Of a stretch of DNA of 64,000 nucleotides, positions 3,937 through 60,009 are shown one piece after another. The translations under genes were made by a program, and so were the position numbers. Position 1 is the first letter of the stretch; every line of letters begins with the position of its first letter. Under the pieces are notes generated by a model. That model made no database searches. It saw nothing but the letters and a program-made list of their open reading frames with translations, and was not told the DNA's origin. Origin of the DNA: Mycolicibacterium aichiense (lineage in GTDB: Bacteria; Actinomycetota; Actinomycetes; Mycobacteriales; Mycobacteriaceae); NCBI RefSeq assembly GCF_010726245.1, contig NZ_AP022561.1, positions 3,906,001 to 3,970,000 of the forward strand, given 5' to 3'.

Positions 3937-3950
3937 GAGAACCGGTTCTC
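3937..3950. promoter_or_regulatory. Palindrome GAGAACCGGTTCTC (GAGAAY-family site A)
   Basis: A perfect 14-bp inverted repeat in the divergent promoter between the LLM gene and the SDR gene. It has the same half-site as the other GAGAAY sites of the window, but a 2-base instead of a 3-base centre. In that respect it also resembles the KstR core (AAC-N2-GTT), so it could belong to either regulon. Confidence 0.6.
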
Positions 3951-3973
3951 GGATAGTCGTGAGAGGAGCCGAC

Positions 3974-4759
3974 GTGTCAGGACGGTGCACAGGCAAGGTC
4001 GCATTGGTGACCGGCAGTAGCCGGGGCCTCGGCAAGGCGATAGCGCAGCGACTGGCCGCCGAGGGCGCCACCGTGGTGCTGACCGCCCGCACCGCCGAAC
4101 CCGATCCGAAGTACGACGGCTCACTGGTACAGACCCAGCAGGAGATCGTCGACGCCGGCGGCACCGCCGTCACCATCGCCGCGGACCTGTCCGACTCCGC
4201 GGACCGCGAGCGGTTGTTCGCCGAGACCGTTGCTCAGGTCGGCGCCCCGGACATCGTCGTCAACAACGCCGCGGTCACCTTCCTGCGCCCGCTGGACGGA
4301 TTCCCCGAGCGGCGGGTCCGGTTGATGCTGGAGATGCACGTCGTTGCACCGCTGCACCTGACGCAGCTCGCCATCCCGGCCATGCGGGAGCGCGGCCGCG
4401 GGTGGGTGCTCAACCTCACCTCGGTTGGCGGCGATCTGCCCCCGGGACCGCCGTTCTCCGAGTTCGACCGCACCGCCGGGTTCGGGATCTACGGCACGGT
4501 CAAGGCGGCGATGAACCGGATGACGAAAAGCCTTGCGGCCGAGTTGTACGACGACGGTATCGCCGTGAACGCCGCCGCGCCGACCAACCCTGTCGCCACT
4601 CCGGGGGCCGGCAGCCTGGACCTCGCGAAGACCGATACCGAGGACATCGAGCTGATCACGAGGACCGCGTTGGAGCTGTGTACCGGCGATCCGTCGACCG
4701 TGACCGGGCGCATCGTGCAGACCCAGACATTTCTTCGCGAGATCGGCGCGCTGAGCTGA
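3974..4759 (+). CDS. Short-chain dehydrogenase/reductase (classical SDR)
   Basis: A 261-residue classical SDR: TGSSRGLGKA is the TGxxxGxG cofactor loop, NNAAV the conserved NNAG-like motif, LNLTSVGG the Ser strand and YGTVK the YxxxK catalytic pair. The start is taken as GTG 3974, which has GAGAGGAG 6 bases upstream. An earlier GTG at 3959 lacks such a site. It probably oxidises or reduces a hydroxyl/keto group. It is followed at once by a phosphotransferase-type gene, and the pair is likely cotranscribed from the palindromic promoter at 3937. Confidence 0.88.
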   Translation: MSGRCTGKVALVTGSSRGLGKAIAQRLAAEGATVVLTARTAEPDPKYDGSLVQTQQEIVDAGGTAVTIAADLSDSADRERLFAETVAQVGAPDIVVNNAAVTFLRPLDGFPERRVRLMLEMHVVAPLHLTQLAIPAMRERGRGWVLNLTSVGGDLPPGPPFSEFDRTAGFGIYGTVKAAMNRMTKSLAAELYDDGIAVNAAAPTNPVATPGAGSLDLAKTDTEDIELITRTALELCTGDPSTVTGRIVQTQTFLREIGALS

Positions 4760-4779
4760 CCGGCGATCTCCTCGACGAG

Positions 4780-5721
4780 TTGCGGGACCGCCTTGCCTCC
4801 CAGGGGATTTCCGGGCTGCGGCCGTTGGCCGGTGGGGCCTCGAGCCTGACCTTCGCCGGTGACCTCGCCGATCGTCGTGTCGTGGTGAAGGTCGCCCCGC
4901 CCGGCCACGCGCCCATCGCGCACCGTGATGTTCTTCGTCAGGCCAGAATCATCCAGGCCCTGCAGGGCACGGCGGTGCCGGTGCCGGAGATCCTGTTCGA
5001 CGACGCGGGCGAACCACCGGACATACCACCGCTGTTCGTGATGTCGTTCTCCCCCGGAACGTCGGTGGAGCCGCTGTTCGGCCCCGACGACGCCGGTGCG
5101 GAGACCGCGGTCGCCGAGCGGTTTCATCGTGCCGCCCACACTCTGGGTGTGCTGCACCGGCTGTCACCTGCCGAGTTCGGCCTGACCGGCGAACCGGTCA
5201 TAGCCCCGGCTGCCGAGGTCGACAAATGGTGTCGCACATTGGAAACGGTGGATCCGGCGCTCGCGCCCGGTTGGCAACAGGTTGCGCACGCATTGCACGT
5301 CGCGACCCCGCCCCCGATCGCGCCGGCTATCGTGCACGGCGACTTTCGATTGGGCAACCTGCTGGCCGACGAGCAGGGCATCACCGCTGTGATCGACTGG
5401 GAGATCTGGTCGGTCGGCGACCCGCGTGTCGACGTCGGCTGGTTCCTGATCAACTCCGACCCGGACACCTATCGGCGAGCCACCCCGTACCGCGGGACGA
5501 CCCCGCCGGTGCGCGAATTGGTCGCCGATTACCGGGATGCGGTGGGAAGGCACGTACCCGACCTCGAGTGGTTCCAGGCGCTTGCCTGTTTCAAGTCGAC
5601 GGCCACCTGGTCGCTGATCGTCAAACACAACCGGCGCCGGATGACAGCCGACCCCTCGTTGGAGGCGATGGCCGAGGCCCTGCCCGGCTTACTCAACCGA
5701 GCGGCCCATTACCTGGCTTGA
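4780..5721 (+). CDS. Aminoglycoside-phosphotransferase-like (APH/choline kinase fold) protein
   Basis: About 313 residues. The kinase-like fold is clear: LRPLAGGASSLTF nucleotide loop, RVVVKVAPPG with the ATP-contacting Lys, IVHGDFRLGNLL catalytic loop (HGD..N) and VIDWE metal-binding Asp. Relatives sit beside acyl-CoA dehydrogenases in many actinobacteria (ACAD10/11-like N-terminal kinase domain) and may phosphorylate hydroxyacyl intermediates, which fits the acyl-CoA context here. The start is uncertain. TTG 4780 is the first standard codon in frame after the preceding gene, but a CTG at 4756 overlapping the SDR stop (CTGA) would give tighter coupling. Confidence 0.8.
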   Translation: MRDRLASQGISGLRPLAGGASSLTFAGDLADRRVVVKVAPPGHAPIAHRDVLRQARIIQALQGTAVPVPEILFDDAGEPPDIPPLFVMSFSPGTSVEPLFGPDDAGAETAVAERFHRAAHTLGVLHRLSPAEFGLTGEPVIAPAAEVDKWCRTLETVDPALAPGWQQVAHALHVATPPPIAPAIVHGDFRLGNLLADEQGITAVIDWEIWSVGDPRVDVGWFLINSDPDTYRRATPYRGTTPPVRELVADYRDAVGRHVPDLEWFQALACFKSTATWSLIVKHNRRRMTADPSLEAMAEALPGLLNRAAHYLA

Positions 5722-5807
5722 GGCACGAACGACGAAGCAGGGCAGAGTTTTCCACAGTTCTGACTTCATCCACAGGTCGGCTTTGGCGTCGGGTTTTTGT
5801 CGGTGGT

Positions 5808-5823
5808 TCGCACTAATGTTCGA
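5808..5823. promoter_or_regulatory. SOS box (LexA site) TCGCACTAATGTTCGA
   Basis: Matches the mycobacterial SOS box TCGAAC-N4-GTTCGA at 11 of 12 defined positions. It ends 3 bases before the ATG of the DUF222/HNH gene, so that gene should be DNA-damage inducible and possibly leaderless. Confidence 0.7.
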
Positions 5824-5826: not shown

Positions 5827-7158
5827 ATGGGTTTGATCGACGGCGTGTTGGAGGCGCTCGACGATGTCGTCGAGGCGTTGGCCGCAGTCGATCTCGAGGG
5901 GTTGTCACCGCCGGATCGGTTCAGGGTTCTGCAGCGGTTGGAGACCGCGCGACGCCGGCAGGTCGCAGTGTCGCACGCGGTGGTGGGGCGGTTGGAGCAG
6001 GTCGAGGGCTGCCCGCCGGTACCGATCACCCTGGCCGATGTGTTGCGGATCAGTCCGCGGGAGGCCAAACGCCGCATGCGGGATGCCGAGCAGGTGGCGC
6101 CGCGGCGGGCGTTGACCGGTGAGCCGCTGCCGCCGCTGCTGCCCGAGACCTCCAAGGCCTGGCACGACGGGCAGTTGGATGGCGAGCATCTGAAGGTGAT
6201 CCAGAAATTCTTCCGTGACTTGCCCGATCATGTCCCGACGGTGGAGGTCGAGAGGGCCGAACGCACACTGGCCGAGCACGCCCAAACGATGCGGCCCGAT
6301 CAGTTGGACAAGATCGCCCACCGGTTGGCGCTGCACCTCAACCCGGACGGGACGTTCTCCGATGACGACCGCGCCCGCAAACGCGGCTTCGTCTGGTGCG
6401 GTGGGCAACAAGTCGACGGGATGAGTGTGGGCCGGCTGATCGCCACGCCGGAGTTGCGGGCGCTGCTCGATGGGTGGTTCACCAAGTTCGCCGCACCCGG
6501 GGTGTGCAACCCCGCCGACCAGACCCCCACCCTCACCCCATCCGAGGATGTGGCCGACCGCGACCTGCGCAGCCACGCCCAACGCCAACATGACGCGTTG
6601 ACCGCACTGGTGCGCGGTCAGCTCGGGGATCCGAAACTCGGTCAGCACAACGGGTTACCCGTCACGGTGATCGTCTCGGCCACCCTGCAGGACCTGCAGG
6701 CCAAGACCGGGCACGCGGTCACCGCCACCGGAACCCTGCTACCCATCCCCGACGTCATCCGGATGGCCAGCCACGCCTACCACTACCTGGCCCTGTTCGA
6801 CGGGATGCGCGGGCAGGCGTTATGGCTGGGCCGCACCAAACGGGTGGCATCGGCTGATCAGCGGATCATGCTGCACAGCAAGGAACGCGGTTGCACCCGC
6901 CCGGGATGTGACGCACCGGGCTATCTCACCGAGGTCCACCACGTCGACGAATGGGCCCAGGGCGGGCTGACCAACATCGACACCCTCACCCTGGCCTGCC
7001 CGGCCGATCACCGACTCCTCGACCACGGCTGGAAAACCCGAAAACTCGCCAACGGCAACACCGAATGGATCCCCCCACCACAACTCCCACTCACCGCAGG
7101 CACCAACACCTACCACCACCCAGAACGCCTGCTTGCCAAGGACGCCGAAAAGGACTAG
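5827..7158 (+). CDS. DUF222 / HNH endonuclease, 13E12 repeat family
   Basis: A 443-residue protein with an N-terminal DUF222 region (about residues 5-300) and a C-terminal HNH nuclease domain (about residues 345-410: CTRPGCDAPGYLTEVHHVDEW, then LTLACPADHRLLDHGW). This is the architecture of the mycobacterial 13E12 repeat proteins, several of which are known to be SOS-controlled. The start is set at ATG 5827 because the SOS box ends just before it, although the frame is open to 5797. Its stop codon overlaps the stop of the convergent acyl-CoA dehydrogenase gene (CTAG). The biological role of the family is not established, and repeated copies elsewhere in the genome are expected. Confidence 0.92.
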   Translation: MGLIDGVLEALDDVVEALAAVDLEGLSPPDRFRVLQRLETARRRQVAVSHAVVGRLEQVEGCPPVPITLADVLRISPREAKRRMRDAEQVAPRRALTGEPLPPLLPETSKAWHDGQLDGEHLKVIQKFFRDLPDHVPTVEVERAERTLAEHAQTMRPDQLDKIAHRLALHLNPDGTFSDDDRARKRGFVWCGGQQVDGMSVGRLIATPELRALLDGWFTKFAAPGVCNPADQTPTLTPSEDVADRDLRSHAQRQHDALTALVRGQLGDPKLGQHNGLPVTVIVSATLQDLQAKTGHAVTATGTLLPIPDVIRMASHAYHYLALFDGMRGQALWLGRTKRVASADQRIMLHSKERGCTRPGCDAPGYLTEVHHVDEWAQGGLTNIDTLTLACPADHRLLDHGWKTRKLANGNTEWIPPPQLPLTAGTNTYHHPERLLAKDAEKD

Positions 7159-8453
7159 CCGCGCGGAATGCCGGCCAGCCGGTCGGCGAACTTCTCTTCG
7201 GCGGCGGCTCGCAATCGCAAGAGGTGTTCGGAGGGAAACAGATCCGGCGCCGGTTCGCGGTTCTTCAGCAGCAGCCGGGCCAAGGTCACCTTGTGCACCT
7301 CGGTCGGCCCGTCGGCGAGCCCCAGCACGAACGACTCGGTCAGGTATTGCACGAACGGCATCTCGTGGCTGGTACCCAGCGAACCGTGAATCTGCAGTGC
7401 GCGCGCCGAGACGTCGTGCAACACCTTCTGCATCATCGCCTTGACGGCCGAGATATCGGCCCGTACCGCCTTGTAGTCGTTGTACTGGTCGATCTTCCAC
7501 GCGGTCTGCAAAGTCAGCAGCCGGAACGCCTCGATCTCCATCCAGGAGTCGGCGACCATCTCCTGCACCATCTGCTTGTCCGCCAGCACGCTGCCCTGCG
7601 TGTAGCGCGACACTTCCCGCTCGCAGATCATGTCGAATATCCGCCGCACCAGGCCGACGGTCCGCATCGCGTGGTGAATTCGACCGCCACCCAACCGGGT
7701 TTGCGCCACCACGAACGCACCACCGCGCGGGCCAAGCATGTGGTCGGCGGGGACACGCACGTTCTCGTACCGCACGTAGCCCTCGCGGCCGCCGCCCCCG
7801 AGCGGCTGGTAACCCAGCCCGACATCGCGCAGCACGTTGATCCCGGGGGTGCCGCCGGGCAGCACGAACATCGAATACCGGTCGTACGGCGCGGCATCGG
7901 GGTCGGTCATCGCCATCACGATGATGAACGACGCTTTGGACGCGAACGACGAATACCACTTCTCGCCGTTGATGACCCAATGGTCGCCGTCTTGCACAGC
8001 GGTGGTCTCGAAGATCTTGGGATCGGCGCCACCCTGAGGTTCGGTCATCGAGAAGCAGGAGATGATGCGGTTGTCCAGGAGCGGCTCGAGATAACGCTCC
8101 TTGAGCTCCGGCGTGCCGTAGTGCGCGAGGATCTCACTGTTGCCCGAGTCCGGCGCCTGCGAACCGAAAACGATTGGCGCGCACTCGGACCGGCCTAAGA
8201 TCTCATTGAGCAGCGCCAATTTCACCTGCCCGTAGCCCGGGCCGCCGAGATGCGGGCCCAGGTGAGTGGCCCATAAGCCGCGGTCTTTGACGATCTGCTG
8301 CAGCGGCGGAATCAACGCCTGGCGTACCGGGTCGGTGAGGTCATGCGATTCGGAGACGATGTAGTCGATCGGCTCGCACTCCGAGCGGACGAATTCCTCG
8401 ACCCACTTCAGTTGATCAGCCCAATCCGGATCGGTGGAGAAGTCCCATGACAT
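7155..8453 (-). CDS. Acyl-CoA dehydrogenase (FadE, ACAD10/11-like)
   Basis: A 432-residue FAD flavoenzyme that alpha,beta-desaturates acyl-CoA. Visible family features are the [11 protein letters not shown] flavin/substrate segment, [11 protein letters not shown] and the C-terminal helix [14 protein letters not shown]. The C-terminal active-site region reads [10 protein letters not shown], so the Glu-Gly-Thr of medium-chain enzymes is replaced by Asp-Gly-Pro, as in the ACAD10/11 branch. It is third in a thiolase, enoyl-CoA hydratase, dehydrogenase operon (18 bp after the hydratase). The acyl chain it handles cannot be told. Confidence 0.9.
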
Positions 8454-8471
8454 GTGTTTCGTCCCTTCCGA

Positions 8472-9244
8472 TTACGACCAGGTGGATCGGCGGTCGGCCG
8501 CGTCATCGGTCGCGTGGCTGAGAACCTGATTGCGGTTCTCCAGCTCCAGCGCCGGGCCCAGCCCCGCGGCGGCGATGTTGACCTGCAGCGCACGCTTTGT
8601 CAGCTGAACTCCGAACGGCGCCAGTTCGGCGACCCGACGGGCGATATCCACGGATCGCTCGACCAGCTCCTCGGGCTCCACCAGGTGGCTGACCAGCCCG
8701 CGACGGTCCGCTTCCTCAGCAGGCACGGTGCGGCCGGTGAGCATCCAGTCCGCGGCCACCCCCGCCCCGACGATCCGGGGCAGGTGATAGCTCATCCCCA
8801 TCTCCGCGCCCGACAGTCCGAGCAGGATCGCAGCGTTGCCGAATGTGGCTGCGGTGGAACAGATCCGGATATCGGCGGCCAAGCTCAGCGCCAATCCTGC
8901 GCCCACGCACGCTCCGTTGACCGCCGCGATCACCGGTTGCGGCAGGTCGGCGACCGCGCGCACCAGACCCGCCATCGCCTCCTGGAAGCGCAGCCGGTCG
9001 ATGGCGGGGGCGTTGGCATCGAGCATGCCCGGGCCGAAGTGACGGATGTCGATCCCCGAACAGAAGCCGCGACCGGCACCGGTGATCACCACCGCATGTA
9101 CCGACTGGTCCCGCCCCGCCGCAGCCACGGTGAGCGCAAGCTCGTCGCGCATGACCTCGTTGATCGCGTTGAGTTGCTTCGGGCGATTGAGCCGGATCAG
9201 AAGGACGCCGGGCGCCGGCGTCTCGAGCTCGAGGGTCTCGGTCA

Positions 9245-9245
<1 letters not shown>
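8472..9245 (-). CDS. Enoyl-CoA hydratase/isomerase (crotonase family)
   Basis: A 257-residue crotonase-fold enzyme that would hydrate or isomerise an enoyl-CoA. Oxyanion-hole segments are GRGFCSGID (about residues 66-74) and [19 protein letters not shown] (about 115-133), and an acidic residue is retained in [13 protein letters not shown]. The ATG at 9245 overlaps the stop of the upstream thiolase (TGATG), which argues for translational coupling and against the longer open frame to 9293. With the neighbours it makes a beta-oxidation cassette. Confidence 0.9.
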
Positions 9246-10474
<1,229 letters not shown>

Positions 10475-10513: not shown

Positions 10514-10528
10514 GAGAATAGAGTTCTC
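10514..10528. promoter_or_regulatory. GAGAAY-family site B: GAGAATAGAGTTCTC
   Basis: Matches GAGAAY-N3-RTTCTC at 12 of 12 positions. It lies between the thiolase operon (leftward) and the secreted-protein gene at 10607 (rightward). Confidence 0.65.
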
Positions 10529-10606: not shown

Positions 10607-11020
10607 ATGCGCTTAGTCCGGATGTGTTCTGCGGTTGCACTGGCTGCGGTGTGCGTCGCCGGTTCGTCGGCTCCCGCCGGCGCCGAGGAGCCGCTGCACC
10701 AAGTCACCTACAGCGTGTTCTCCGAGCTGCCGTTCCGGGCTGCCGACATCTACTACCGGGACACCGAACCGGCGAACTGGTCGGACTACAGCCACGACCC
10801 CTACGTCTTCAGCCCGAAGGTCGAGGCGGATATCGGCCCCACCAAGAAGTGGGTGCTCAACGTTCAGTTGGCAAACCCCGACGAGTGGGCGATGGTGGCG
10901 GCCACCAGCGGGCTATCGCCCACCCCGCCGAACGTTCACTGCGTGCTTGCGGTCGACGGCGTCGTCGTCGCGGAGAACTCCGGCCCCAAGGGCGCGCTCT
11001 GCTCGCTGCGCCACTGGTGA
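10607..11020 (+). CDS. Small secreted protein, paralogue of the gene at 15026
   Basis: A 137-residue protein with a Sec signal peptide (MRLVRMCSAVALAAVCVAGSS..., cleavage expected near PAGAEE, residue 27). The mature part is about 110 residues and shares IYYRDT, SDYSHDPYVFSP, GPKGALCSL and a terminal Trp with the protein at 15026, and two Cys residues could form a disulfide. The function is unknown. Position near the mce operon and the shared regulatory palindrome suggest an envelope or periplasmic role in the same process. Its last 85 bases overlap the convergent TetR gene. Confidence 0.8.
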   Translation: MRLVRMCSAVALAAVCVAGSSAPAGAEEPLHQVTYSVFSELPFRAADIYYRDTEPANWSDYSHDPYVFSPKVEADIGPTKKWVLNVQLANPDEWAMVAATSGLSPTPPNVHCVLAVDGVVVAENSGPKGALCSLRHW

Positions 11021-13505: not shown

Positions 13506-13524
13506 ATTCGGTAACCGAATTCTC
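13506..13524. promoter_or_regulatory. Overlapping palindromes: ATTCGGTAACCGAAT and GAGAAY-type site C
   Basis: Bases 13506-13520 form a 15-bp palindrome centred on one base. Bases 13510-13524 (GGTAACCGAATTCTC) match GAGAAY-N3-RTTCTC at 10 of 12 positions. The site is 17-35 bp upstream of the secreted-protein start at 13489. Confidence 0.4.
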
Positions 13525-13650
13525 CGGCTCAGAAAAGAAACCGGGAAGAAAAACCCGCCTCCCACAGACCGGGTTAGCCGCTGTGTAATGCTGGGCGGCA
13601 GTGCTAGCGTCGCGCGTCGCCATGCGACCGCGATGGACGAGGAGGGTCCC

Positions 13651-14427
13651 ATGCCGCCGGGCAACCGTGAATCCGAAGCTCCCGACCCCGACGACCTGAA
13701 CTCCGCCGAGGCGGCGGAGGCTGCGGCGGCGGCGGCGGAGGCTCGGGCCGAGGCAGCCCGGGCCCGCGCAAACGAATTGCGCCGCAAGCTGGCCGAGTCT
13801 CGCGACGAGGCGCCGGCAGTCCCGGAGACCGGGACCGATCCCGAGAACGCCGAAGTCGACACCACCGAGGGCACCGAACCTGCCCCTGCCGGGGACATCG
13901 AATCGCCTGCCGCGCCGGACAACAAGCGCCGACGGCGCCTGCCCGTCGGTAAGACCATCGCCGCCGCGGTGGCCATTCTTGCGATCATCGGCTTGCTCGG
14001 CGGCACCGGATGGATGGTGTGGAAACACCAGGACGCCGAGGCACAGCGGCATCGCACAGCCGAGTTCTCGGCCGCAGCGCGGCAAGGCGTGGTGAACCTG
14101 ATGTCGATGGACTTCAATCAGGCCAAAGAGAGCGTGCAGCGGGTAATCGACGACTCGACGGGCAAGTTCAAAGCCAATTTCCAAGACGGCGCCGACGATC
14201 TGATCAAGGCGATGCAGCAATCGAAGGTCGTCACCAAGGTCACCGTCAACGACACCGCCGTCGAGTCGATGGACAAGGATTCGGCCACCGTCCTGGTCGC
14301 GGCCACCTCGCAGCGCACCGGGCCGGATGCCCCCAAGGAGGACCAGCAGCCACGGGTGTGGCGGGTCGTGGTCAGCCTGCAGCGGGATGGCGACCAGCTG
14401 AAGGTGTCGGACGTCGAATTCGCCTGA
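13651..14427 (+). CDS. Mce-associated membrane protein (Mam-type)
   Basis: A 258-residue protein. It has a charged Ala/Glu/Arg-rich cytoplasmic N-terminus (residues about 17-50, coiled-coil-like), one transmembrane helix at about 102-124 (TIAAAVAILAIIGLLGGTGW) and an extracytoplasmic domain of about 130 residues with the pattern of Mce-associated proteins (AARQGVVNLMSMDFNQAKESVQRVIDDSTG, then VTKVTVNDTAVES). Related Mam proteins stabilise or assist Mce transporters. ATG 13651 is chosen because of GAGGAGGG 4-5 bases upstream. It lies 2.3 kb from mceF but on the opposite strand. Confidence 0.8.
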   Translation: MPPGNRESEAPDPDDLNSAEAAEAAAAAAEARAEAARARANELRRKLAESRDEAPAVPETGTDPENAEVDTTEGTEPAPAGDIESPAAPDNKRRRRLPVGKTIAAAVAILAIIGLLGGTGWMVWKHQDAEAQRHRTAEFSAAARQGVVNLMSMDFNQAKESVQRVIDDSTGKFKANFQDGADDLIKAMQQSKVVTKVTVNDTAVESMDKDSATVLVAATSQRTGPDAPKEDQQPRVWRVVVSLQRDGDQLKVSDVEFA

Positions 14428-14467
14428 CCGGCGAACAGAACCACCAAACCCTTTCTCCGGGAAGGCG

Positions 14468-14504
14468 GAAGATAGTATTCTCCGATGACGAGAATGCCAA
14501 TCTC
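14468..14504. promoter_or_regulatory. Tandem GAGAAY-family sites D and E
   Basis: Two 15-bp sites separated by 7 bases: GAAGATAGTATTCTC (14468-14482, 10 of 12 positions) and GAGAATGCCAATCTC (14490-14504, 11 of 12). They precede the secreted-protein gene at 14562. Confidence 0.55.
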
Positions 14505-14561
14505 GCGGCGTGCGATATCCGGGGCTTCGCACCGTGCGCACCGAACGTGGAGGAAGCCAGC

Positions 14562-15023
14562 GTGAAATCCCTTGTGATCACCACAGTCGTGGTGGCGGCA
14601 ACGGTGGCACTCGCACCGCCGGCATCCGCTGAGATGAACCTCGGCAATTACGAGCTGATCATGCCCGACCGCAGGGACTTTCATACCTGGGTCTGGTCGG
14701 CGCTGACGCCATGCAAAGCACCGGACACATATGACAACCTCCCCAATTGCATCCACATCCTCACGCTGCCGCGGCCGATCGCCAAGGCCGTCCAGAGTGC
14801 CGGCGACGCGCCGCTCGTCAACGGCCAGTACACCTTCACCATCGACGACCCGTTCGGCCTGCGGTGTGGTGACATCTACTACGGCCCAACCATTCCCACC
14901 CACGACGTGTACACCTGGGACGCGAACACCCTTGCCGGTTCGATGGTCTCGACATTCGATGCCGGGTGCGACGGCGCCGCGGGCGGCAGCTTCACCTACC
15001 CGTTCAGTCTGAACCGGATGTGA
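14562..15023 (+). CDS. Small secreted protein
   Basis: A 153-residue protein from GTG 14562 (strong GGAGGAAG upstream), with signal peptide MKSLVITTVVVAATVALAPPASA. The mature part starts EMNLGNYELIMPDRRDFHTW and has four Cys. It lies 2 bp upstream of the secreted protein at 15026 and is certainly cotranscribed with it. No known domain is recognised. Promoter sites D/E suggest it is coregulated with the catabolic operons and mce genes. Confidence 0.75.
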   Translation: MKSLVITTVVVAATVALAPPASAEMNLGNYELIMPDRRDFHTWVWSALTPCKAPDTYDNLPNCIHILTLPRPIAKAVQSAGDAPLVNGQYTFTIDDPFGLRCGDIYYGPTIPTHDVYTWDANTLAGSMVSTFDAGCDGAAGGSFTYPFSLNRM

Positions 15024-16004: not shown

Positions 16005-17714
16005 TCAGCTCTGCAGCATGTCCTGCCACGTCGTCGCCGGCTTGGCCAGGTTCGTCTGGCGGTAGAGCGTGCCGTCGCTGCCCATGTACTGACCGGTACG
16101 CGGATCGTACTTGGCGACCTGCAAGGCGGGCGCCTTATGGCCGGCTGGACTGAACGAACTCGGAGTCACCTGCGGAACATCAGATTCCGGCGGCGGTGGC
16201 GGCTGCAGGTCGGGCGGCAGCATGTTCTCCGGTCCCGGCAGGTTGATCGGCGCGGGGCCGATATCGCCCTGCGGGCCGGGTGGTGTCACCGGCGGGGTTT
16301 CGTAGATCGGCTGACCGGGCAACAGCGGACCCGGTCCGGTGCCCGCGAAGTTCGGTGGTGGCGAGTCGATCGGCGGGGCACCGGGCGGCGGCGCACTCAC
16401 CCCCGGCGGCAGCGGCGTGCCCTGCAGCGGCCCATAGATGTTGGAATCCGGTAGCACTCGGCTGTCCACCGGAATGCCCTGGGCTATCAGGTTCGGGTCG
16501 ATCGGATAGGGACCGGTCACATGTTGCCGCTGAGCCAACGGCTGAAAACCTTTGGGGTCGTTGCACAGCTCGACTGTCGGCGCCCGCTTACCCGGATGTT
16601 CAATGCACGGATAGTTGCGCGCACCGCGAACCGCGACCGGCGAGTCCTGCGGCAGTTTGCAGTACAAATCATCGGGTGTGTCGATGACCGAGGTATCGGC
16701 CGGGTTGCGCCACGACGACGGCGGCATGAACCCGACCGTGCACGCCGCGGGATCGCCGAGGCCCAAGGCGAAGTCACCGTTCGGCAGGCCCGCGGGACTG
16801 TTGCTTGGTAGGTAGGTTTGGATCTGGGCGACGAACGGAGGAACGAGCACCAGCAGCTGCTCGATGGACTTGTTGTACGTCAGGAAGATCTGACCGAATG
16901 TCGTCATGTTCGCCAAGAGCAACGGCAGCGTCGGCTTGATCTGCTCGAGCAGCCGTGAGGTCTCCTGCGCGAAGCCGGGACCGTCACGCAGGATCGACCG
17001 GAACTGCGGGTCATTGTCGGCCACCTGCTCGGTGATACCGGCCAGGCTCTGCGCCCAGGTTCGGATCGAGTCGGTGGTCATTTCCTGCGCCCCGATGAAC
17101 GGGCGGGCGTCGTCGATCAAAGCCCTGGTGTTGTCGGCGATCCCGTTGACGTCGCGGGTGATTGTCGCTCCCGAGTCGAGGAGTGAACCGAAGTCATAGC
17201 CGGTGCCGTTGAACGCCTGGTAGGTCTCACCGAGCAGTTGGCTGAGCTTGTCCTTGGGGATGGTGTCCATCAGCTTGCTCACCTGGTCGAGCATCGGGCC
17301 CACCGATTGTGGGATCGACGTGCTGCCGACCGGAATGACGGAACCGTCTTGCAGATACGGCGCTTTGTCATTGCGAGGCAACAATTCCACGTACTGCTCA
17401 CCCACCGCCGACATGCTGCGTACCTCGGCCTTGAGGTCGGCTGGGATCTTCGGTGAGGTATCCAGCGACAGCGTCGCCTGGGCGCCGGTATCGGTGAGCT
17501 CGACCGAGGTCACCTTGCCGACCTGCAGGCCCCGATACGTCACATTGCTGAACTGGTACAGACCGCCGGTAGCGGGCAAGTCGAGCGTGACCGTGATCCT
17601 GCCCAATCCCAGCAGGGTGGGCAACTGGACGTAGGCGAACATCATGATGGCCACGCCGACGATCGAGGCGATCGTGAAGATGATCAGCTGGGTGCGTACG
17701 AACCGTGTGAGCAT
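16005..17714 (-). CDS. mceF: MCE-family protein MceF
   Basis: A 569-residue protein: one N-terminal transmembrane helix (about residues 7-28, TQLIIFTIASIVGVAIMMFA), the MlaD/MCE domain (about 38-115, LYQFSNVTYRGLQVGKVTSV), a long helical region to about 330, and a Pro-rich tail of about 200 residues (PPPGAPPIDSPPPNF and similar). MCE proteins form the periplasmic lipid-conducting tunnel of the Mce transporter. The ATG overlaps the mceE stop. The Pro-rich tail is long for MceF and may span or anchor in the cell wall. Confidence 0.92.
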   Translation of the reverse strand: MLTRFVRTQLIIFTIASIVGVAIMMFAYVQLPTLLGLGRITVTLDLPATGGLYQFSNVTYRGLQVGKVTSVELTDTGAQATLSLDTSPKIPADLKAEVRSMSAVGEQYVELLPRNDKAPYLQDGSVIPVGSTSIPQSVGPMLDQVSKLMDTIPKDKLSQLLGETYQAFNGTGYDFGSLLDSGATITRDVNGIADNTRALIDDARPFIGAQEMTTDSIRTWAQSLAGITEQVADNDPQFRSILRDGPGFAQETSRLLEQIKPTLPLLLANMTTFGQIFLTYNKSIEQLLVLVPPFVAQIQTYLPSNSPAGLPNGDFALGLGDPAACTVGFMPPSSWRNPADTSVIDTPDDLYCKLPQDSPVAVRGARNYPCIEHPGKRAPTVELCNDPKGFQPLAQRQHVTGPYPIDPNLIAQGIPVDSRVLPDSNIYGPLQGTPLPPGVSAPPPGAPPIDSPPPNFAGTGPGPLLPGQPIYETPPVTPPGPQGDIGPAPINLPGPENMLPPDLQPPPPPESDVPQVTPSSFSPAGHKAPALQVAKYDPRTGQYMGSDGTLYRQTNLAKPATTWQDMLQS

Positions 17715-43176: not shown

Positions 43177-43180
43177 GCAG

Positions 43181-53634: not shown

Positions 53635-54783
53635 CTACAACCCCAGGGACTTGGCGATGATCACCTTCATCACCTCGCTGGTGCCGGCATAGATCCGGGT
53701 CACCCGCGCATCGGTGTAGAGCCGGGCGATCGGATACTCCATCATGTAGCCGTAACCGCCGAACAGCTGTAGGCAGCGGTCGATCACGCGCTGCTGCATC
53801 TCGGTGCAGAACAGCTTCACCCGGGCGGCGTCGGCGCCACTGAGCTCGCCCTCGACGTGCAGGGCGACCGCCCGGTCGAGCATGGCCTGGGCGGCCTCCA
53901 CCTCCGTCGAGCAGGCGGCGAGTTCGAACTTGGTGTTCTGAAACGAGGCGACGGGCGTGCCGAAAGCCTTGCGGCTCTGGGTGTATTCGATCGCCGCGGC
54001 GATCGCCGAGCGGGCTTGGGCCACCGAGCCCACCGCCACGGTGAGCCGCTCCTGGGCCAGGTTGTGCCCGAGGTAGCTGAAGGCCTGCCCCTCCTCCCCC
54101 AGCACGTTGGCCGCAGGCACGCGGACGTCCACGAATGACAGCTCCGCGGTGTCCTGAACTTTGCAGCCCATCTTCTCGAGTTCGCGTCCGCGGGTGAAGC
54201 CCGCCATCCCGTCCTCGACGACCAGCAACGTCAGCCCGGCGCGACGATTGTCCGGGTCGGTGGACGTCCGCGCCACCACGACCACCAGATCGGCTTGCAT
54301 GCCGCCGGTGATGAAAGTCTTTGCACCGTTGACGATGTAGTGGTCGCCATCTCGCACCGCGGTCGTGCGCACCCCGGCCAGGTCCGACCCGGTGCCGGGC
54401 TCGGTCATCGCGACCGCGGTCAGCAGCGTGCCCGCTGCCAGACCCGGGAACCAGCGGGCTCGCTGTTCGTCGTTCGCGTAGTGCAGGAAATACGGCAGGA
54501 TCACCTCGAGCTGGGTGCGGACCGTCGACAAGGTGACCAGTGCGCGGGCGGCTTCTTCCTGCAGGACCACGTTGTAGCGGTAGTCGTCCTGGCCGCCGCC
54601 GCCGTATTCTTCGGGCAGCGTGACGCCCATGATCCCGGTCTCCCCGAGCTTCGCGAACGTCTCGCGCGGCATCCGGCCCGCCTTCTCCCACTGCGGATAG
54701 GCGGGCACCACCTCCTTCTCGATGAAGTCCCGAGCGAGCTCGCGAAACGCCTCGTGGTCGGCGGTGAACAGATCGCGACGCAT
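53635..54783 (-). CDS. Acyl-CoA dehydrogenase (FadE)
   Basis: A 382-residue ACAD with a complete layout: MTEPGTGSDLAGVRTTAV flavin segment, YIVNGAKTFITGG, QSRKAFGTPVASFQNTKFEL and QLFGGYGYMMEYPIARLY. The terminal motif is IYAGTSEVMK, Ala in place of the medium-chain catalytic Glu, as in isovaleryl/long-chain types that use a Glu in another helix. Last gene of the five-gene minus operon (amidohydrolase, ACAD, CaiB, thiolase, ACAD), starting 8 bp after the thiolase stop. Confidence 0.91.
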   Translation of the reverse strand: MRRDLFTADHEAFRELARDFIEKEVVPAYPQWEKAGRMPRETFAKLGETGIMGVTLPEEYGGGGQDDYRYNVVLQEEAARALVTLSTVRTQLEVILPYFLHYANDEQRARWFPGLAAGTLLTAVAMTEPGTGSDLAGVRTTAVRDGDHYIVNGAKTFITGGMQADLVVVVARTSTDPDNRRAGLTLLVVEDGMAGFTRGRELEKMGCKVQDTAELSFVDVRVPAANVLGEEGQAFSYLGHNLAQERLTVAVGSVAQARSAIAAAIEYTQSRKAFGTPVASFQNTKFELAACSTEVEAAQAMLDRAVALHVEGELSGADAARVKLFCTEMQQRVIDRCLQLFGGYGYMMEYPIARLYTDARVTRIYAGTSEVMKVIIAKSLGL

Positions 54784-54791
54784 CGAGCCCG

Positions 54792-55937
54792 TCAGCCGAT
54801 CAGCTCGACGACGGTCGCGTTGGCAGTGCCACCGCCTTCACACATCGTCTGCAGTCCGTAGCGAATTCCGTTGTCGCGCATGTGATACAGCATGCGTGTC
54901 ATCAACACCGCGCCCGAGCCGCCCAGCGGGTGGCCCAGCGCGATCGCGCCGCCGAGCGGGTTGAGACGCTCGGTCTTGGCGCCGGTGTCGGCTTGCCACG
55001 CCATCGGCACCGGCGCGAACGCCTCATTGACCTCGAACACTCCGATGTCGTCGATGCTCAGACCGGTCTTGCCCAGCACCTTCTCCGTCGCAGGAATCGG
55101 GCCGGTCAGCATCATCACCGGGTTGGCGCCGGCGACTGCCCCCGCGACGTAGCGCGCCAGCGGTGTCCAGCCCTGTGCGGCAGCATATTCGGCGGTGGTG
55201 ACCAGCAGGGCGGCCGCGCCGTCCGAGATCTGCGACGAGTTACCGGCGTGGATGACGCCGTCCTCGGTGAACGCCGGTTTGAGTCCGGCCAGTTTCTCGA
55301 CGGTGGTCCCCCGGCGGATGCCTTCGTCGGCGCTCACCACGCATGAGTCGGTGGCCACCGGGACGATCTGGTCGTCGAAGGCCCCGCGATCCTGTGCCGC
55401 AGCGGCCAATTCGTGGCTGCGCGCCGAGAACTCGTCGAGGTCGGTGCGTGAGAGTCCCCACTTCTGCGCGATCATCTCCGCGGAGATGCCTTGGTTGAAC
55501 GAGAAGTCGTCATAACGTTCGAGCACTTTCGGGCCATACGGCATGCCGGTGGCCCGCGCCGACCCGAGCGGAACACGGCTCATCACCTCGACGCCGCCGG
55601 CGACCACCACGTCCTGCTGGCCCGACATCACTGCCTGCGCGGCGAAATCCAGTGCCTGCTGGCTTGATCCGCAGGCCCGGTTGACCGTGGTGCCGGGAAT
55701 GGACTCCGGCCAGCCGGCGGCCAGAACCGAGAACCGGCCGATATTGCTCGACTGGTCACCAACCTGGGACACGCAGCCCCACACCACGTCGTCGACCGTC
55801 GCCGGGTCCAAGCCGGTGCGCTCGGCGAGTGCGTTGAGCACCACCGCCGCCAGGTCGGCGGCATGCATGCCGGACAGCCCGCCGTTTCGCCTACCGACCG
55901 GGGTGCGGACCGCCTCGACGATCACCGTTTCCCGCAT
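54792..55937 (-). CDS. Acetyl-CoA acetyltransferase / 3-ketoacyl-CoA thiolase
   Basis: A 381-residue thiolase: nucleophilic Cys89 in NRACGSSQQAL, NEAFAPVP, GHPLGGSGA and a C-terminal MCEGGGTAN with the second Cys. Start MRETVIVEAVRTPVGRRNG is canonical. It performs the last step of beta-oxidation in the operon with CaiB and two ACADs. It is the second classical thiolase of the window (other at 9245), implying separate chain-shortening routes or substrates. Confidence 0.92.
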   Translation of the reverse strand: MRETVIVEAVRTPVGRRNGGLSGMHAADLAAVVLNALAERTGLDPATVDDVVWGCVSQVGDQSSNIGRFSVLAAGWPESIPGTTVNRACGSSQQALDFAAQAVMSGQQDVVVAGGVEVMSRVPLGSARATGMPYGPKVLERYDDFSFNQGISAEMIAQKWGLSRTDLDEFSARSHELAAAAQDRGAFDDQIVPVATDSCVVSADEGIRRGTTVEKLAGLKPAFTEDGVIHAGNSSQISDGAAALLVTTAEYAAAQGWTPLARYVAGAVAGANPVMMLTGPIPATEKVLGKTGLSIDDIGVFEVNEAFAPVPMAWQADTGAKTERLNPLGGAIALGHPLGGSGAVLMTRMLYHMRDNGIRYGLQTMCEGGGTANATVVELIG

Positions 55938-55963
55938 GGCTTCTCCTTAGTTGTGACGATCAT

Positions 55964-57178
55964 TCACGCGACGGCACCCTGCTCACGCAGTCTGCCGATG
56001 TCGTTGTCCGACAAGCCCAATTCGGCCAGCAACGCATCAGTGTGCTCACCGAGGCCGGGTACCGGGCCCATCGGCTGCTCGTAGTTCTCGATGATCGGCG
56101 GCGGCAGGATGGCCTGGATCGGACCCGCGGTGGTTTCCACCGTCCGCCAGCGGTCACGATCGGACAACTGCGGGTGCGCGAGCACCTCGCTGGGCAGATT
56201 GTAGCGGGCGTTGCCGATGCCCGCCGCGTCGGCCGTCTTTTGGATATGCGCGAGATCGTGCTGCGCACACCAGGTTTGGATGGCCGAGTTGAGTTCGTCG
56301 CGGTGGGCGCACCGATCGGAGTTGCTGGCGTACCGCGGGTCGTCGGCCAAGTCGGGCCGGTCGATGATCTCGCGTGCCAACCGTTGCCATTCCCGGTCGT
56401 TGGTGGTTCCCAGCACCACCGTCTGATTGTCGGCGGTATCGAAGGAGCCGTACGGCGCGACCGCCGGCGAGTTCATCCCCAGCGGCTCCTGATCGATGCC
56501 GGAGTGCTGCGCATAGGTCAGCGGATACCCCATCAGGTCCATCATCGTGTCGAACAGGCTCACGGTGACGGCGGAGCCGCGCCGCTCCCGCTGACCGCGC
56601 GAGATCAGCAGCGCCATGATCGACAACGCCGAGTACAGCCCGGTGGAGATGTCGGCGATCGGCGGTCCGGGCTTGGCCGGTTTCCCGGGATAACCGGTCA
56701 CCGCGCACGATCCCGACTCCGACTGCGCCAGCAGGTCGTAGGCGCGCTTGTTCGACAGCGGCCCGCCTGCGCCGTACCCGTCGATCTCGACCGCGATCAC
56801 ATCAGGGTGCCGATCACGCAGCTGGTCGGCTGAGATGCCGAGCCGGGCGGTGGAACCCGGCGCAAGATTGGACACCAACACATCGGCGCGGTCGAGCAAC
56901 CGGTGTAGGACCTCCAGGCCCTCGGCCGATTTCAGATCCAGCGCAATCGATTCCTTGTTGCGGTTGGCCCAGACGAAGTGGGCCGCAAGGCCGCCCGGGC
57001 CGTTGACGACGTCGTCGTAGTGCCTGGCGAAATCCCCGCCCGCGGGGTTCTCCACCTTGATCACGCGAGCGCCGAAGTCAGCCAGGACGCGCGTACACAT
57101 CGGTGCCGCCACCGCCTGCTCCAACGCCACGACAGTGATGCCGGCCAGCGGCGCTGCCGGTCCTTGCGCAGAAGTCAT
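55964..57178 (-). CDS. CaiB/BaiF-family CoA-transferase
   Basis: A 404-residue family III CoA-transferase from ATG 57178 (MTSAQGPAAPLAGITVVALEQ). The frame to 57247 runs into the upstream gene's end. ARVIKVENPAGGDFARHYD, NRNKESIALDLKSAEG, YDLLAQSESG and the probable catalytic Asp in PPIADISTGLYSAL are visible. It loads CoA on a carboxylic acid, giving the substrate of the two neighbouring ACADs. Confidence 0.92.
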   Translation of the reverse strand: MTSAQGPAAPLAGITVVALEQAVAAPMCTRVLADFGARVIKVENPAGGDFARHYDDVVNGPGGLAAHFVWANRNKESIALDLKSAEGLEVLHRLLDRADVLVSNLAPGSTARLGISADQLRDRHPDVIAVEIDGYGAGGPLSNKRAYDLLAQSESGSCAVTGYPGKPAKPGPPIADISTGLYSALSIMALLISRGQRERRGSAVTVSLFDTMMDLMGYPLTYAQHSGIDQEPLGMNSPAVAPYGSFDTADNQTVVLGTTNDREWQRLAREIIDRPDLADDPRYASNSDRCAHRDELNSAIQTWCAQHDLAHIQKTADAAGIGNARYNLPSEVLAHPQLSDRDRWRTVETTAGPIQAILPPPIIENYEQPMGPVPGLGEHTDALLAELGLSDNDIGRLREQGAVA

Positions 57179-57212
57179 CAGATCACCATACGGTCGGCCA
57201 GACTCCCGGCTC

Positions 57213-58403
57213 CTAGTAGCTCTTGGGCAGGCCGAGCACATTCGCACCGAGGAAGTTCAGGATCATCTCCTGACTGACGGGCGCGATCTTCATCAGGCGC
57301 GCCTCCCGGAAGAACCGGGAGATGTGGTACTCCTCGGAATAACCCATGCCGCCGTGGGTCTGCAGCGCGCGATCGGCTGCCGCGAAACCAGCATCCGCGC
57401 ACAGATACTTGGCCATGTTGGCTTCCCGGCCGCACGACTTTCCGTTGTCGTAGAGCCACGTTGCCTTGCGCAGGATCAGCTCTGCCGCGTCGAGGCGGGC
57501 CAGCGAGTCGGCCAGCGGGAACTGGATGCCCTGGTTCATCCCGATCGGCCGGTCGAACACCACACGCTCGTTGGCGTACTTCACTGCGCGGTCCAGCGCC
57601 ACCCGGCCGATCCCCAGCGCCTCGGCCGCGATCAGCATCCGCTCCGGATTCAGCCCGTGCAGGATGTAGGAGAAGCCCTTGCCCTCCTCGCCGATCCGGT
57701 CGGCGACCGGGACCCGCAGATCGTCGATGAACACCTCGTTGGAGCTGACCGCGTTGCGGCCCATCTTCTTGATGGGGCGGATGTCTACGTGGTCCCGATC
57801 GATGTCGGTGAGGAACAGCGAGAGCCCTTCGGTCGGCTTGCCGCCCCGCTTCTCGACGTCCTCGCGGCTCTCGGTGCGGGTCAGCAACAGGATCTTCTCG
57901 GATTCCAGCGCCTTGGAGATCCACACCTTGCGGCCGTTGACGACATAACTGTCACCGTCGCGCCTGGCGAATGTCGTGATGCGCGAAGTATCAAGTCCGG
58001 CACCGGGTTCGGTGACGCCGAAGCATACGTGCAGATCGCCGTTGACGATGCGCGGCAGGGTCGCGGCCTTCATCTCGTCGGAGCCGAAGACCACCACCGG
58101 CTGCATCCCGAAGATCGACATGTGGATGGAGCTCGCCGCGTTCATCCCGCCGCCGGAGCGGGCGACCTCCTCGGCCAAGATGGTCGCCTCGGTGATGCCC
58201 AGACCGTGGCCGCCATACTCCTCGGGGATCGTCATCCCGAGCCAACCGCCACCTGCGATGGCGTCGTAGAATTCCGAAGGGAATTCGTGCTGCTGGTCCT
58301 TCTCCATCCAGTAGTGGTCGTCGAAGCGTGATGCCAGCTCCCGCACCGACTTACGGATCAGCTCCTGATCCTCGGTCAGTTCGAAGCTCATACCTGAAGA
58401 CAC
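57213..58403 (-). CDS. Acyl-CoA dehydrogenase (FadE), divergent active-site tail
   Basis: A 396-residue ACAD (GTG 58403 with GAGGAG upstream; ATG 58391 is an alternative). GVTEPGAGLDTSRI, YVVNGRKVWIS and TYGGMGYS-like QTHGGMGYSEEYHISRFF are typical. The final active-site motif usually reading YxGTSE is replaced by KIAPVSQEMI, so the Gly-Thr that contacts flavin is lost. Some actinobacterial FadEs share this. Altered substrate scope or dependence on a partner is possible. Confidence 0.88.
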   Translation of the reverse strand: MSSGMSFELTEDQELIRKSVRELASRFDDHYWMEKDQQHEFPSEFYDAIAGGGWLGMTIPEEYGGHGLGITEATILAEEVARSGGGMNAASSIHMSIFGMQPVVVFGSDEMKAATLPRIVNGDLHVCFGVTEPGAGLDTSRITTFARRDGDSYVVNGRKVWISKALESEKILLLTRTESREDVEKRGGKPTEGLSLFLTDIDRDHVDIRPIKKMGRNAVSSNEVFIDDLRVPVADRIGEEGKGFSYILHGLNPERMLIAAEALGIGRVALDRAVKYANERVVFDRPIGMNQGIQFPLADSLARLDAAELILRKATWLYDNGKSCGREANMAKYLCADAGFAAADRALQTHGGMGYSEEYHISRFFREARLMKIAPVSQEMILNFLGANVLGLPKSY

Positions 58404-58497
58404 AACAACGCTCCTCTACTCGATGTCGGCACACAGGCCCGTGCACCGGCGCGATCTCCCGCTGTGCGCACCGGCGCCCTGTCGCCTACGGACCTTG

Positions 58498-59793
58498 TCA
58501 GTCCTTGTTGCCGGACAGCTCCTTGGCGTTCGCCGCGAAGTCGGCGAAGTTGGCGCCGGTCTTCTCCTTCTTCGACAGCGCCTGGATGGAGACATCGTGA
58601 CCTTCGGCAGCCTTGCGCAGCGCGCCGATCGTCGCCTGTTCCTTGGCAATATGTGTGAACGGGTCCCAGTGGTACCAGCGCATGGCGTTCTGGTAGGTCA
58701 TCTTGTTGATCTCGTCGTCGGGCACATTGTGCTCACGAAGGACGTCGTCGAGTTGCTCGGGGGCACCGGGCCACATCGAGTCCGAGTGGGGGTAGTCGGC
58801 TTCCCAGCAGATGTTGTCGATGCCGACGTCGTTACGCAGTTGGACCCCGACGTGATCGGAGATGAAGCAGGTCAGGAAGTGATCGCGGAACACCTCTGAC
58901 GGCTTCTTGCCCTTGAAGTCCTGCCCGGTCCAGGTGGAGTGCATCTCATAGGTGCGGTCGGCGCGCTCCAGGAAGTAGGGAATCCAGCCGGTGCCGCCCT
59001 CACTCAGGGCGATCTTGAGGTCCGGGTATTCCTTGACCGGCCGTGACCACAACAGGTCCGCGGCGGCCTGGACGATGTTCATCGGCTGCAGCGTGATCAT
59101 CACGTCCATCGGCGCGTCGGGGGCGGTGATCGCGAGCCGTCCCGAGGAGCCGATGTGCACATTGAGCACGGTGTCGGTGTCGACCAGGGCGTCCCACATC
59201 GGCTTCCAGTGCTCGAAGTCGTGAAAACTGGGATAGCCCATCGCCGCGGGGTTTTCGGTGAACGTCAGCGAGTGCACCCCTCGGTCGGCGTTGCGGCGGA
59301 TCTCGGCCGCACAAGCCACCGGATCCCAGATGACCGGCAACGTCATGGGGATGAAGCGCGCCGGGTAGGCCCCGCACCACTCCTCGACGTGCCAGTCGTT
59401 GTAGGCCTGCACCAGCGCCAGCGAGAACTCCGGATCCTCGGTGGCGAACAACCGGCCGGCGAATCCCGGGAACGAGGGGAAACACATCGAGCCCAGGATG
59501 CCGCCGGCGTTCATGTCCTTGACCCGCTCGTCGACGTTGTAGCAGCCCGGCCGGATCTCATCGAGCCCCTGGGGTTCCAGGCCGTACTCCTCCTTCGGCC
59601 GGCCCGCCACCGCATTGAGCGCGACATTGGGGATGGTGATGTCGCGGAACCGCCACATGTCTGAGCCGTCGGGATTGTGCACCAGCCGGGGAGCGTCGTC
59701 GGCATATTTCTTCGGCAGATGATTGGCGAACATGTCGGGCGGTTCCACGATGTGGTCGTCGACGCTGATCAGGATCATGTCCTCTTTGCGCAT
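58498..59793 (-). CDS. Amidohydrolase-2 family metal-dependent hydrolase
   Basis: A 431-residue TIM-barrel protein. ISVDDHIVEPPDMF (about residues 9-22) supplies the DxH metal motif, NVHIGSSGR (about 212-220) the barrel His, and WEADYPHSDSMWPG (about 334-347) the late Asp. First gene of the minus operon with FadE, CaiB and thiolase, and divergent from the Rieske oxygenase operon. It likely opens or decarboxylates a ring-derived acid before CoA-dependent degradation. A Lys/Ala-rich tail of about 40 residues follows the fold. Confidence 0.88.
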   Translation of the reverse strand: MRKEDMILISVDDHIVEPPDMFANHLPKKYADDAPRLVHNPDGSDMWRFRDITIPNVALNAVAGRPKEEYGLEPQGLDEIRPGCYNVDERVKDMNAGGILGSMCFPSFPGFAGRLFATEDPEFSLALVQAYNDWHVEEWCGAYPARFIPMTLPVIWDPVACAAEIRRNADRGVHSLTFTENPAAMGYPSFHDFEHWKPMWDALVDTDTVLNVHIGSSGRLAITAPDAPMDVMITLQPMNIVQAAADLLWSRPVKEYPDLKIALSEGGTGWIPYFLERADRTYEMHSTWTGQDFKGKKPSEVFRDHFLTCFISDHVGVQLRNDVGIDNICWEADYPHSDSMWPGAPEQLDDVLREHNVPDDEINKMTYQNAMRWYHWDPFTHIAKEQATIGALRKAAEGHDVSIQALSKKEKTGANFADFAANAKELSGNKD

Positions 59794-59824
59794 ACCGGCT
59801 CCTTCCGTCGCGGACCTCTGTAAT

Positions 59825-59839
59825 GAAAACTAGCTTCTC
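59825..59839. promoter_or_regulatory. GAGAAY-family site J: GAAAACTAGCTTCTC
   Basis: Matches at 10 of 12 positions. It lies 32 bp upstream of the amidohydrolase start (minus strand) and so controls the five-gene acyl-CoA operon. Confidence 0.45.
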
Positions 59840-59994
59840 ATTCCACGAGAATCAACATCCGGTAAAGCGCTCACCGGTGCACGCGGTCCGTCAGCCGACC
59901 CGCCGACACGCCTGCTCGACCTTGGTTTTTCGGCCCTGCTCAAGTGCGGGGATTGACCTTGCGCCCCGTTCATGGAAACCTGTTATCCCGATAT

Positions 59995-60009
59995 GAGAAT
60001 GCGATTCTC
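59995..60009. promoter_or_regulatory. GAGAAY-family site K: GAGAATGCGATTCTC
   Basis: A perfect palindrome apart from its centre base, 12 of 12 positions, 21 bp upstream of the start of the CMD-Rieske operon. The best single copy in the window. Confidence 0.7.

Follow-up and report, generated by a model that had tools for sequence, protein, structure and literature searches.

A GAGAAY-N3-RTTCTC palindrome, probable operator of a TetR-family regulator of a catabolic island and an mce importer in Mycolicibacterium aichiense

The DNA considered here is a stretch of 64,000 nucleotides of Mycolicibacterium aichiense (contig NZ_AP022561.1, positions 3,906,001 to 3,970,000; hereafter, the window), which carries genes for catabolic enzymes, exported proteins and an mce importer and, in many of their promoter regions, copies of the palindrome GAGAAY-N3-RTTCTC; a gene for a TetR-family regulator, TetR-1, lies just past its right end. 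A sequence-only reading of the window had listed eleven palindromic sites and proposed that they form one regulon. All eleven coordinates are correct, as are the scores with the 3-base centre (matching arm positions out of 12) and the perfect copy with a 2-base centre at 3937; however, the list missed a place at 3915, and the unlisted match at 15561 (11/12) is ascribed to chance. The twelve sites are given below with their counterparts in three relatives (genomes G004, G136, and G018) compared for site conservation.

3915..3929: predicted hybrid operator GGTAAC-N3-ATTCTC, 10/12, tandem partner of 3937; identical in G018, without exact counterpart in G004 and G136, both of which also lack an orthologue of the gene at 3039-3878
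3937..3950: GAGAAC-CG-GTTCTC, 2-base centre, 22 bp from 3915; 14/14 identical in G018, unaligned in G004 and G136
10514..10528: predicted operator, 12/12, before the thiolase/enoyl-CoA hydratase/acyl-CoA dehydrogenase operon (minus strand) and an exported-protein gene (plus strand); 12/12 in all three relatives despite a changed centre
13510..13524: predicted hybrid operator GGTAAC-N3-ATTCTC, 10/12, between two divergent exported/membrane protein genes; 10, 10, and 9 in the relatives
14468..14482: weak predicted operator, 10/12, tandem partner of 14490 (22 bp); drops to 9 in the three relatives
14490..14504: predicted operator before the exported-protein gene 14547-15023; 11/12 here and in the three relatives
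30644..30658: predicted operator before the aldehyde dehydrogenase-CaiB-thiolase-YrbE-Mce run (minus strand); 11/12 here and in the three relatives
30812..30826: predicted operator before mycofactocin-type short-chain dehydrogenase/reductase (SDR), ferredoxin, and P450 genes (plus strand); 11/12, identical in G004, unaligned in G136 and G018
40718..40732: predicted operator before two acyl-CoA dehydrogenase genes (minus strand); 10/12, with 12/12 arm positions identical in the three relatives
40844..40858: predicted operator before amidohydrolase, Rieske ferredoxin, and hydrolase genes (plus strand); 11/12 here and in the three relatives
59825..59839: predicted operator before amidohydrolase, then acyl-CoA dehydrogenase, CaiB, and thiolase genes (minus strand); 10/12; 10, 10, and 9 in the relatives
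59995..60009: predicted operator before CMD and Rieske oxygenase genes (plus strand), in the run leading to the TetR-1 gene; 12/12 here and in the three relatives

Genes were called by a home-made caller on the 164 kb obtained by joining the window and 100 kb of flanks, and operon limits were guessed. The gene runs behind the sites and the TetR-1 gene are as follows; (s) marks names and features resting on sequence only.

4007..5721, plus strand: SDR (PF00106) and APH-type phosphotransferase (PF01636) genes
7155..10447, minus strand: acyl-CoA dehydrogenase (PF00441), enoyl-CoA hydratase (s), and thiolase (PF00108) operon
10607..11020, plus strand: protein with a signal-like N-terminus (s); upstream in-frame start picked by eye
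13588..15023, plus strand: two membrane/exported protein genes with signal-like stretches (s); a Pfam search at E 1e-5 gave no match
16005..30622, minus strand: aldehyde dehydrogenase (PF00171), CaiB-type, thiolase, and one MlaE/YrbE-type permease gene (all three by NCBIfam), a Mce gene (PF11887/PF02470, the single one tested), and the remaining YrbE and Mce genes (s); a 124-nt gap occurs once inside the run
31040..33538, plus strand: mycofactocin-coupled SDR (TIGR03971, above cut-off), ferredoxin (s), and cytochrome P450 (model matches below their cut-offs)
38512..40683, minus strand: two acyl-CoA dehydrogenases (PF00441)
40912..44543, plus strand: two amidohydrolases (PF04909), Rieske ferredoxin (s), and hydrolase (s)
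53635..59793, minus strand: amidohydrolase (PF04909), acyl-CoA dehydrogenase (s), CaiB (s), thiolase (NCBIfam), and acyl-CoA dehydrogenase (s)
60031..64000, plus strand: CMD protein (PF02627), Rieske oxygenase (PF00848), amidohydrolase (PF01979), SnoaL-like protein (s), and acyl-CoA dehydrogenase (s); the run extends beyond the window to the TetR-1 gene
C1:3971992-3972648 (L019:1992-2648), plus strand: TetR-1 gene (218 residues), 1,992 bases past the right end of the window

The classes behind the sites comprise acyl-coenzyme A (CoA) dehydrogenases, thiolases, CaiB-type transferases, amidohydrolases, a Rieske oxygenase, a mycofactocin-coupled SDR, P450-like proteins, an aldehyde dehydrogenase, and the mce importer, and most of the site-bearing gene groups most likely serve the breakdown of a fatty or ring-shaped compound, in support of the single metabolic theme proposed earlier. 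The right flank adds acetoacetate-CoA ligase, a MeaB-like GTPase (L019:2655-3539), and split acyl-CoA mutase subunits (L019:10986-12961), which hint at a branched or ring-derived acyl-CoA. The divergent operons at 30.7, 40.8, and 59.9 kb do have one copy per direction, and the called start codon lies 29–74 nt from the site centre for 11 of the 12 sites (29 nt at 30644); for site 30812, the distance to the SDR start as called is 221 nt, and an earlier in-frame start could lie at 30848, about 30 nt away. Whether the sites link most catabolic operons, as had been claimed, depends on the rule applied: with a 100-nt gap, 13/26 transcription units (30/64 genes) have a site, and with a 130-nt gap, 12/21 (45/64 genes).

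The window contains 19 places matching the palindrome with at most two mismatches, compared to a mean of 4.87 in 100 shuffles (standard deviation 2.12, maximum 12). The 3-base spacer is specific: in the 164 kb it yields 15 places at ≥11/12 and eight at 12/12, as against 0–4 and 0–1, respectively, for every other spacer from 0 to 15. All eight perfect places, and 14 of the 15 island places at ≥11/12, are outside called genes, with 93% of the 164 kb called coding. Over the entire genome (5.93 Mb in a single contig), the exact palindrome occurs 10 times, with eight of these copies in a 122-kb region around the window; allowing one mismatch gives 47 places vs. two for a reversed control. Out of these 47, 32 are outside the island, 27 of them inside called genes and five not, and hence a genomic background exists and is mostly coding; the island shows the opposite pattern, which supports the regulon proposed by the sequence-only reading. 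The relaxed form GRKAAYN3RTTCTC finds 20 distinct places in the genome, 14 of them in the island, and none with the reversed control.

The island is largely syntenic in the three relatives, and the sites are better conserved than their surroundings: 652/674 site positions are identical (96.7%) vs. 5281/6028 flank positions (87.6%), a count that takes in the decoy 15561 and covers site/genome pairs with an alignment and an orthologue. The free centre varies while the arms persist, e.g., at 10514 and 59995. The sites also precede homologues of the same genes more widely. Among the TetR-1 orthologue loci from a scan of genome contigs (the best 80 of 257), a 12/12 site is present within 250 bp upstream of TetR-1 in 80/80, Nocardia and Aldersonia included. 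In the 1.52 Mb around these orthologues, there are 223 perfect sites with spacer 3 vs. 0–1 for any other length between 0 and 10 (at ≥11/12, 249 vs. 1–30), and 211 of the 223 are at most 320 nt upstream of an island-gene homologue, the other 12 lying within about 110 nt behind TetR-1. Expressed as the number of perfect sites over the number of loci with a homologue, the counts are 80/80 before TetR-1, 67/68 before the CMD gene (behind 59995), 51/59 and 8/8 before acyl-CoA dehydrogenases g093 and g094 (cf. 40718), 43/63 before amidohydrolase g114, which has a divergent region in common with the CMD gene, and 22/41 before P450 g037.

A regulator encoded outside the window had been predicted, and TetR-1 is the candidate. 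Its promoter holds tandem places, 12/12 at −85 and 10/12 at −64, and its single helix-turn-helix (HTH) match is the N-terminal TetR domain PF00440 (30.5 bits, cut-off 24); the DNA-binding part is nearly invariant, the C-terminal part variable. An AlphaFold2 model (predicted local distance difference test score, pLDDT, 80) has ten helices and the TetR fold, and the 50 Foldseek matches listed look TetR-type; among the neighbours are EthR2, KstR2, and several FadR proteins, which fits, without proving, a CoA-ester ligand. In a sequence search of PDB, the best match reached 38.9 bits and no close relative was found, and TetR-1 is below the cut-offs of the NCBIfam equivalogs for KstR (NF033703, 21.1 bits vs. 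280), FasR (31.5 vs. 330), and FadR (27.8 vs. 200).

TetR-1 and the sites go together across 148 genomes of the genus, evenly drawn from a larger group, 137 of which have a completeness of 90% or more and a contamination of no more than 5%. TetR-1 is present (74–100% identity) in 122/148 genomes, and in 116 of these 137, absence meaning no match at E 1e-60. Genomes with TetR-1 have a median of 9 perfect sites (mean 9.0) vs. a mean of 0.38 in genomes without it (Mann-Whitney p 1.3e-15, descriptive and uncorrected for relatedness); at least four perfect sites are found in 118/122 of the former vs. 0/26 of the latter, which have at most two in 26/26. Further, seven genomes have two TetR-1 copies. 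In 3/3 second-copy loci examined, the promoter carries GAGAAG-N3-CTTCTC as its palindrome, and the HTH is changed as well (VVDRSRQ to VVERSRQ, QFDGKHEL to QFNGKHEL); the exact variant site precedes the paralogue in 5/7 two-copy genomes. As this variant is found in 27/148 genomes, once each, its lone occurrences weigh little, and its place before the paralogue is what counts. Of the sequence-only evidence, this joint change of operator and reader points most strongly to direct binding. Taking all this into account, the palindrome is very probably the operator of TetR-1, acting as a repressor of the catabolic island and the mce importer.

Two sites of the window, 3915 and 13510, have the hybrid form GGTAAC-N3-RTTCTC, which involves a second regulator.

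C1:2319662-2320279, minus strand: TetR-2, the best TetR-1 paralogue of the same genome, 32% identical

The TetR-2 promoter holds the hybrid GGTAACGTCATTCTC, of the same class as 3915, and GGTAACGTCATTACC lies in the gap that separates TetR-2 from the amidohydrolase-like gene after it. Of the promoter sites at 30 TetR-2 loci, 21 are hybrid, eight have the symmetric form GGTAACGTCRTTACC, and one is GATAACGCCATTCTT. The TetR-2 half-site appears to be GGTAAC, and its symmetric operator, GGTAAY-N3-RTTACC. Symmetric GGTAAY sites occur in 106/106 genomes with both TetRs vs. 3/24 with neither, and exact hybrids, in 103/106 vs. 3/24. A second symmetric place, GGTAAC-N3-GTTACC, is at C1:1072081-1072095 of the same genome. 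An exact hybrid is also present in 10 of the 16 genomes that have TetR-1 and lack TetR-2, in some cases no more than about 30 kb from TetR-1, and G009, with TetR-2 only, has kept one; because of these, each protein may bind hybrids alone. Hybrids, 3915 and 13510 included, may be common to both TetRs, and 13510, earlier described as weak, does score low but is better assigned, with 3915, to this class, perhaps shared with the second TetR. A mixed TetR-1/TetR-2 dimer is a possibility only, the need for it being weakened by the hybrid in G009, those in the 10/16 genomes, and the eight symmetric promoters out of 30. Tentatively, the paralogues could share the hybrids through competition or a mixed dimer, two ligands opening two pathways in order, a scheme we consider possible rather than probable.

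Another recurrent arrangement is the tandem pair. In the surroundings of 163 perfect sites counted as distinct (flank similarity below 80%), a neighbouring place at ≥9/12 lies 21–22 bp away in 39 cases, whereas every other offset between 6 and 45 gives 0–3. In loci unthinned for relatedness, the neighbour is found mainly at −22 before the acyl-CoA dehydrogenase genes in 35/50 and 6/8, and at +21 at TetR-1 itself in 10/22. In the window, the pairs at this spacing (22 bp) are 3915/3937 and 14468/14490, so that 3937 and 14468, present as previously reported, are best read as partners in tandem pairs. The distance equals two helical turns, which suggests two dimers on one face of the DNA.

Other candidate readers were sought among TetR proteins and the regulators near the island. 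The three TetR genes of the window, g058, g069, and g109, have no place at ≥10/12 within 250 bp upstream and each have other imperfect palindromes there, in agreement with the sequence-only reading, and they were rejected; so were g022, g030, LysR g032, and IclR g134 near the island, again with no such place within 250 bp. The intergenic region of IclR g048 is common with the place at genome position 3895543, which is nearer to the divergent gene.

Association across genomes alone cannot separate a binder from a target, and TetR-1 could be a mere target of another conserved regulator that reads the motif and controls the TetR-1 gene. TetR g109 (52832-53443) illustrates the difficulty: it is present in 112/148 genomes, always alongside TetR-1, and co-occurrence alone separates the two poorly. 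However, g109 is missing from 10 genomes with TetR-1, six of which hold 4–9 sites, and hence is not needed for the sites; its promoter has its own palindrome, CAACCTACTG-N6-CACTAGGTTG, and no place at ≥9/12. Since every genome with at least four sites has TetR-1, and the paralogue of TetR-1 differs in step with its operator, this explanation is unlikely as far as the regulators surveyed go, namely TetR proteins and those encoded near the island. Even less likely is TetR-2 as the main binder: it has a hybrid in its own promoter and shares the SLRSFY stretch of the HTH with TetR-1, but it is absent from the 16 genomes mentioned above, among them G016, G022, G069, G073, and G101 with 9–10 perfect sites, the two genomes with TetR-2 and without TetR-1 have one perfect site each, and its symmetric operator appears to be a different one. 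Chance matches in GC-rich DNA are the least plausible source. Such matches do occur, as seen from the mostly coding places outside the island and from 15561-15575, rejected as an operator and taken as chance, a false-positive example, because it lies within a called gene and decays in the three relatives; for the whole set, chance is ruled out by spacer specificity, the shuffle test, conservation, and co-occurrence. As to the mode of action, some TetR-family proteins activate, and NCBIfam NF053731 names FasR an activator, but the position of 11/12 sites close to called starts and the presence of the TetR-1 promoter among the targets, as in the repressor KstR2, whose palindrome is described as preceding the start codons of most targets by 22–82 bp (PMC3068626, in part), make activation by TetR-1 improbable.

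Several observations weigh against the TetR-1 explanation. Four genomes with TetR-1 have few perfect sites (G089, none; G026 and G063, one each; G056, two), all keeping the HTH sequence and only G056 having a perfect site before TetR-1. The exact variant site is missing in two of the seven two-copy genomes (G069 and G130). The Foldseek neighbours are just about 20% identical to TetR-1 and point to no one ligand. Finally, at ≥10/12 the spacer-3 excess in the 164 kb is smaller (36 places vs. 6–22 at other spacers), and hence a 10/12 place is unproven by its score alone, which makes individual weak sites, 14468 among them, uncertain.

With TetR-1 as the repressor, its dimer would bind the 15-bp site near a start codon, at some promoters as two dimers 21–22 bp apart, and would block transcription of about a dozen operons for catabolic genes, the mce importer, exported proteins, and TetR-1 itself. 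Its release would be brought about by an intermediate of the pathway, perhaps a CoA ester, so that uptake and breakdown would switch on together.

Outside the island, intergenic places were collected from both scans of the genome, gene names being assigned there by reading the sequences.

304319: intergenic, phosphotransferase operon / CaiB
797547: intergenic, CaiB / aldehyde dehydrogenase
2320311: intergenic, TetR-2 / acyl-CoA thioesterase-looking gene
3112924: overlapping the end of an acyl-CoA ligase-like gene, 20 nt ahead of an enoyl-CoA hydratase-like gene
4301634: GAAAAC variant, SDR
5772011: abutting a hotdog thioesterase-like gene

A genome-wide scan had been expected to yield CoA-type genes, and most intergenic places do precede them, but not all: the perfect place 3696078, with its centre 244 nt from the start of a 2-oxoacid oxidoreductase gene, and 13397 and 5605176 (both 11/12) show no clear fit to the regulon theme. 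Two further observations concern neighbouring genes. In the left flank (L018), the starts of g045 and g046, judged by eye, resemble the meta-cleavage pathway proteins MhpB and MhpA, and both genes sit in the run behind the place at 3895543. Within the window, 33602-37486 encodes a protein of 1,294 residues with a borderline PF04513 match (38.2 bits vs. cut-off 38) and no site ahead.

A large catabolic island and an mce importer thereby gain a defined candidate control protein, and the question of the substrate becomes testable, as removal of TetR-1, or its ligand, should switch on the whole pathway. The paralogue with the altered half-site and the hybrids form a natural set for studying how TetR helices recognize DNA.

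FadR proteins are repressors of fatty acid degradation. Those from Bacillus, Thermus, and Sulfolobus are fold neighbours of the TetR-1 model, several being solved with acyl-CoA according to the structure titles; the identity in alignments is, however, about 14–22%, and TetR-1 scores far below the FadR model cut-off. Among the open-access papers listed, none describes the motif or the regulon in its title or abstract; an earlier sighting is possible among the logos of Balhana 2015, which gives 30 M. tuberculosis TetR motifs (PMC4482099), a source drawn on in part, like those cited below. BkaR, a mycobacterial TetR repressor of nearby genes for branched-chain keto-acid metabolism (PMC3920632), resembles TetR-1 in its family and nearby targets and differs in the gene set. 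Mce3R offers a precedent for TetR-type control of an mce operon, predicted here for TetR-1, but it is a double TetR of 406 residues binding 25-bp nonpalindromic sites (PMC11667970), whereas TetR-1 is a single TetR of 218 residues whose site is palindromic. An asymmetric operator is brought to mind by the hybrid GGTAAC/RTTCTC sites, yet for two separate proteins. The likeness is closest in arrangement for KstR2, a TetR repressor encoded inside its catabolic cluster, with a site in its own promoter and control of CoA-linked catabolism (PMC3068626), and for KstR: TetR-1 also is encoded in the cluster, has a site in its own promoter, and has a short palindrome near the starts of CoA-linked genes. 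TetR-1 differs from KstR by scoring far below the KstR model cut-off, and from KstR2 by the motif, the 15-bp GAGAAY-N3-RTTCTC of the TetR-1 promoter instead of the 14-bp AnCAAGnnCTTGnT, and by the size of the regulon, about 20 sites for TetR-1 as compared to three sites and 15 genes for KstR2.

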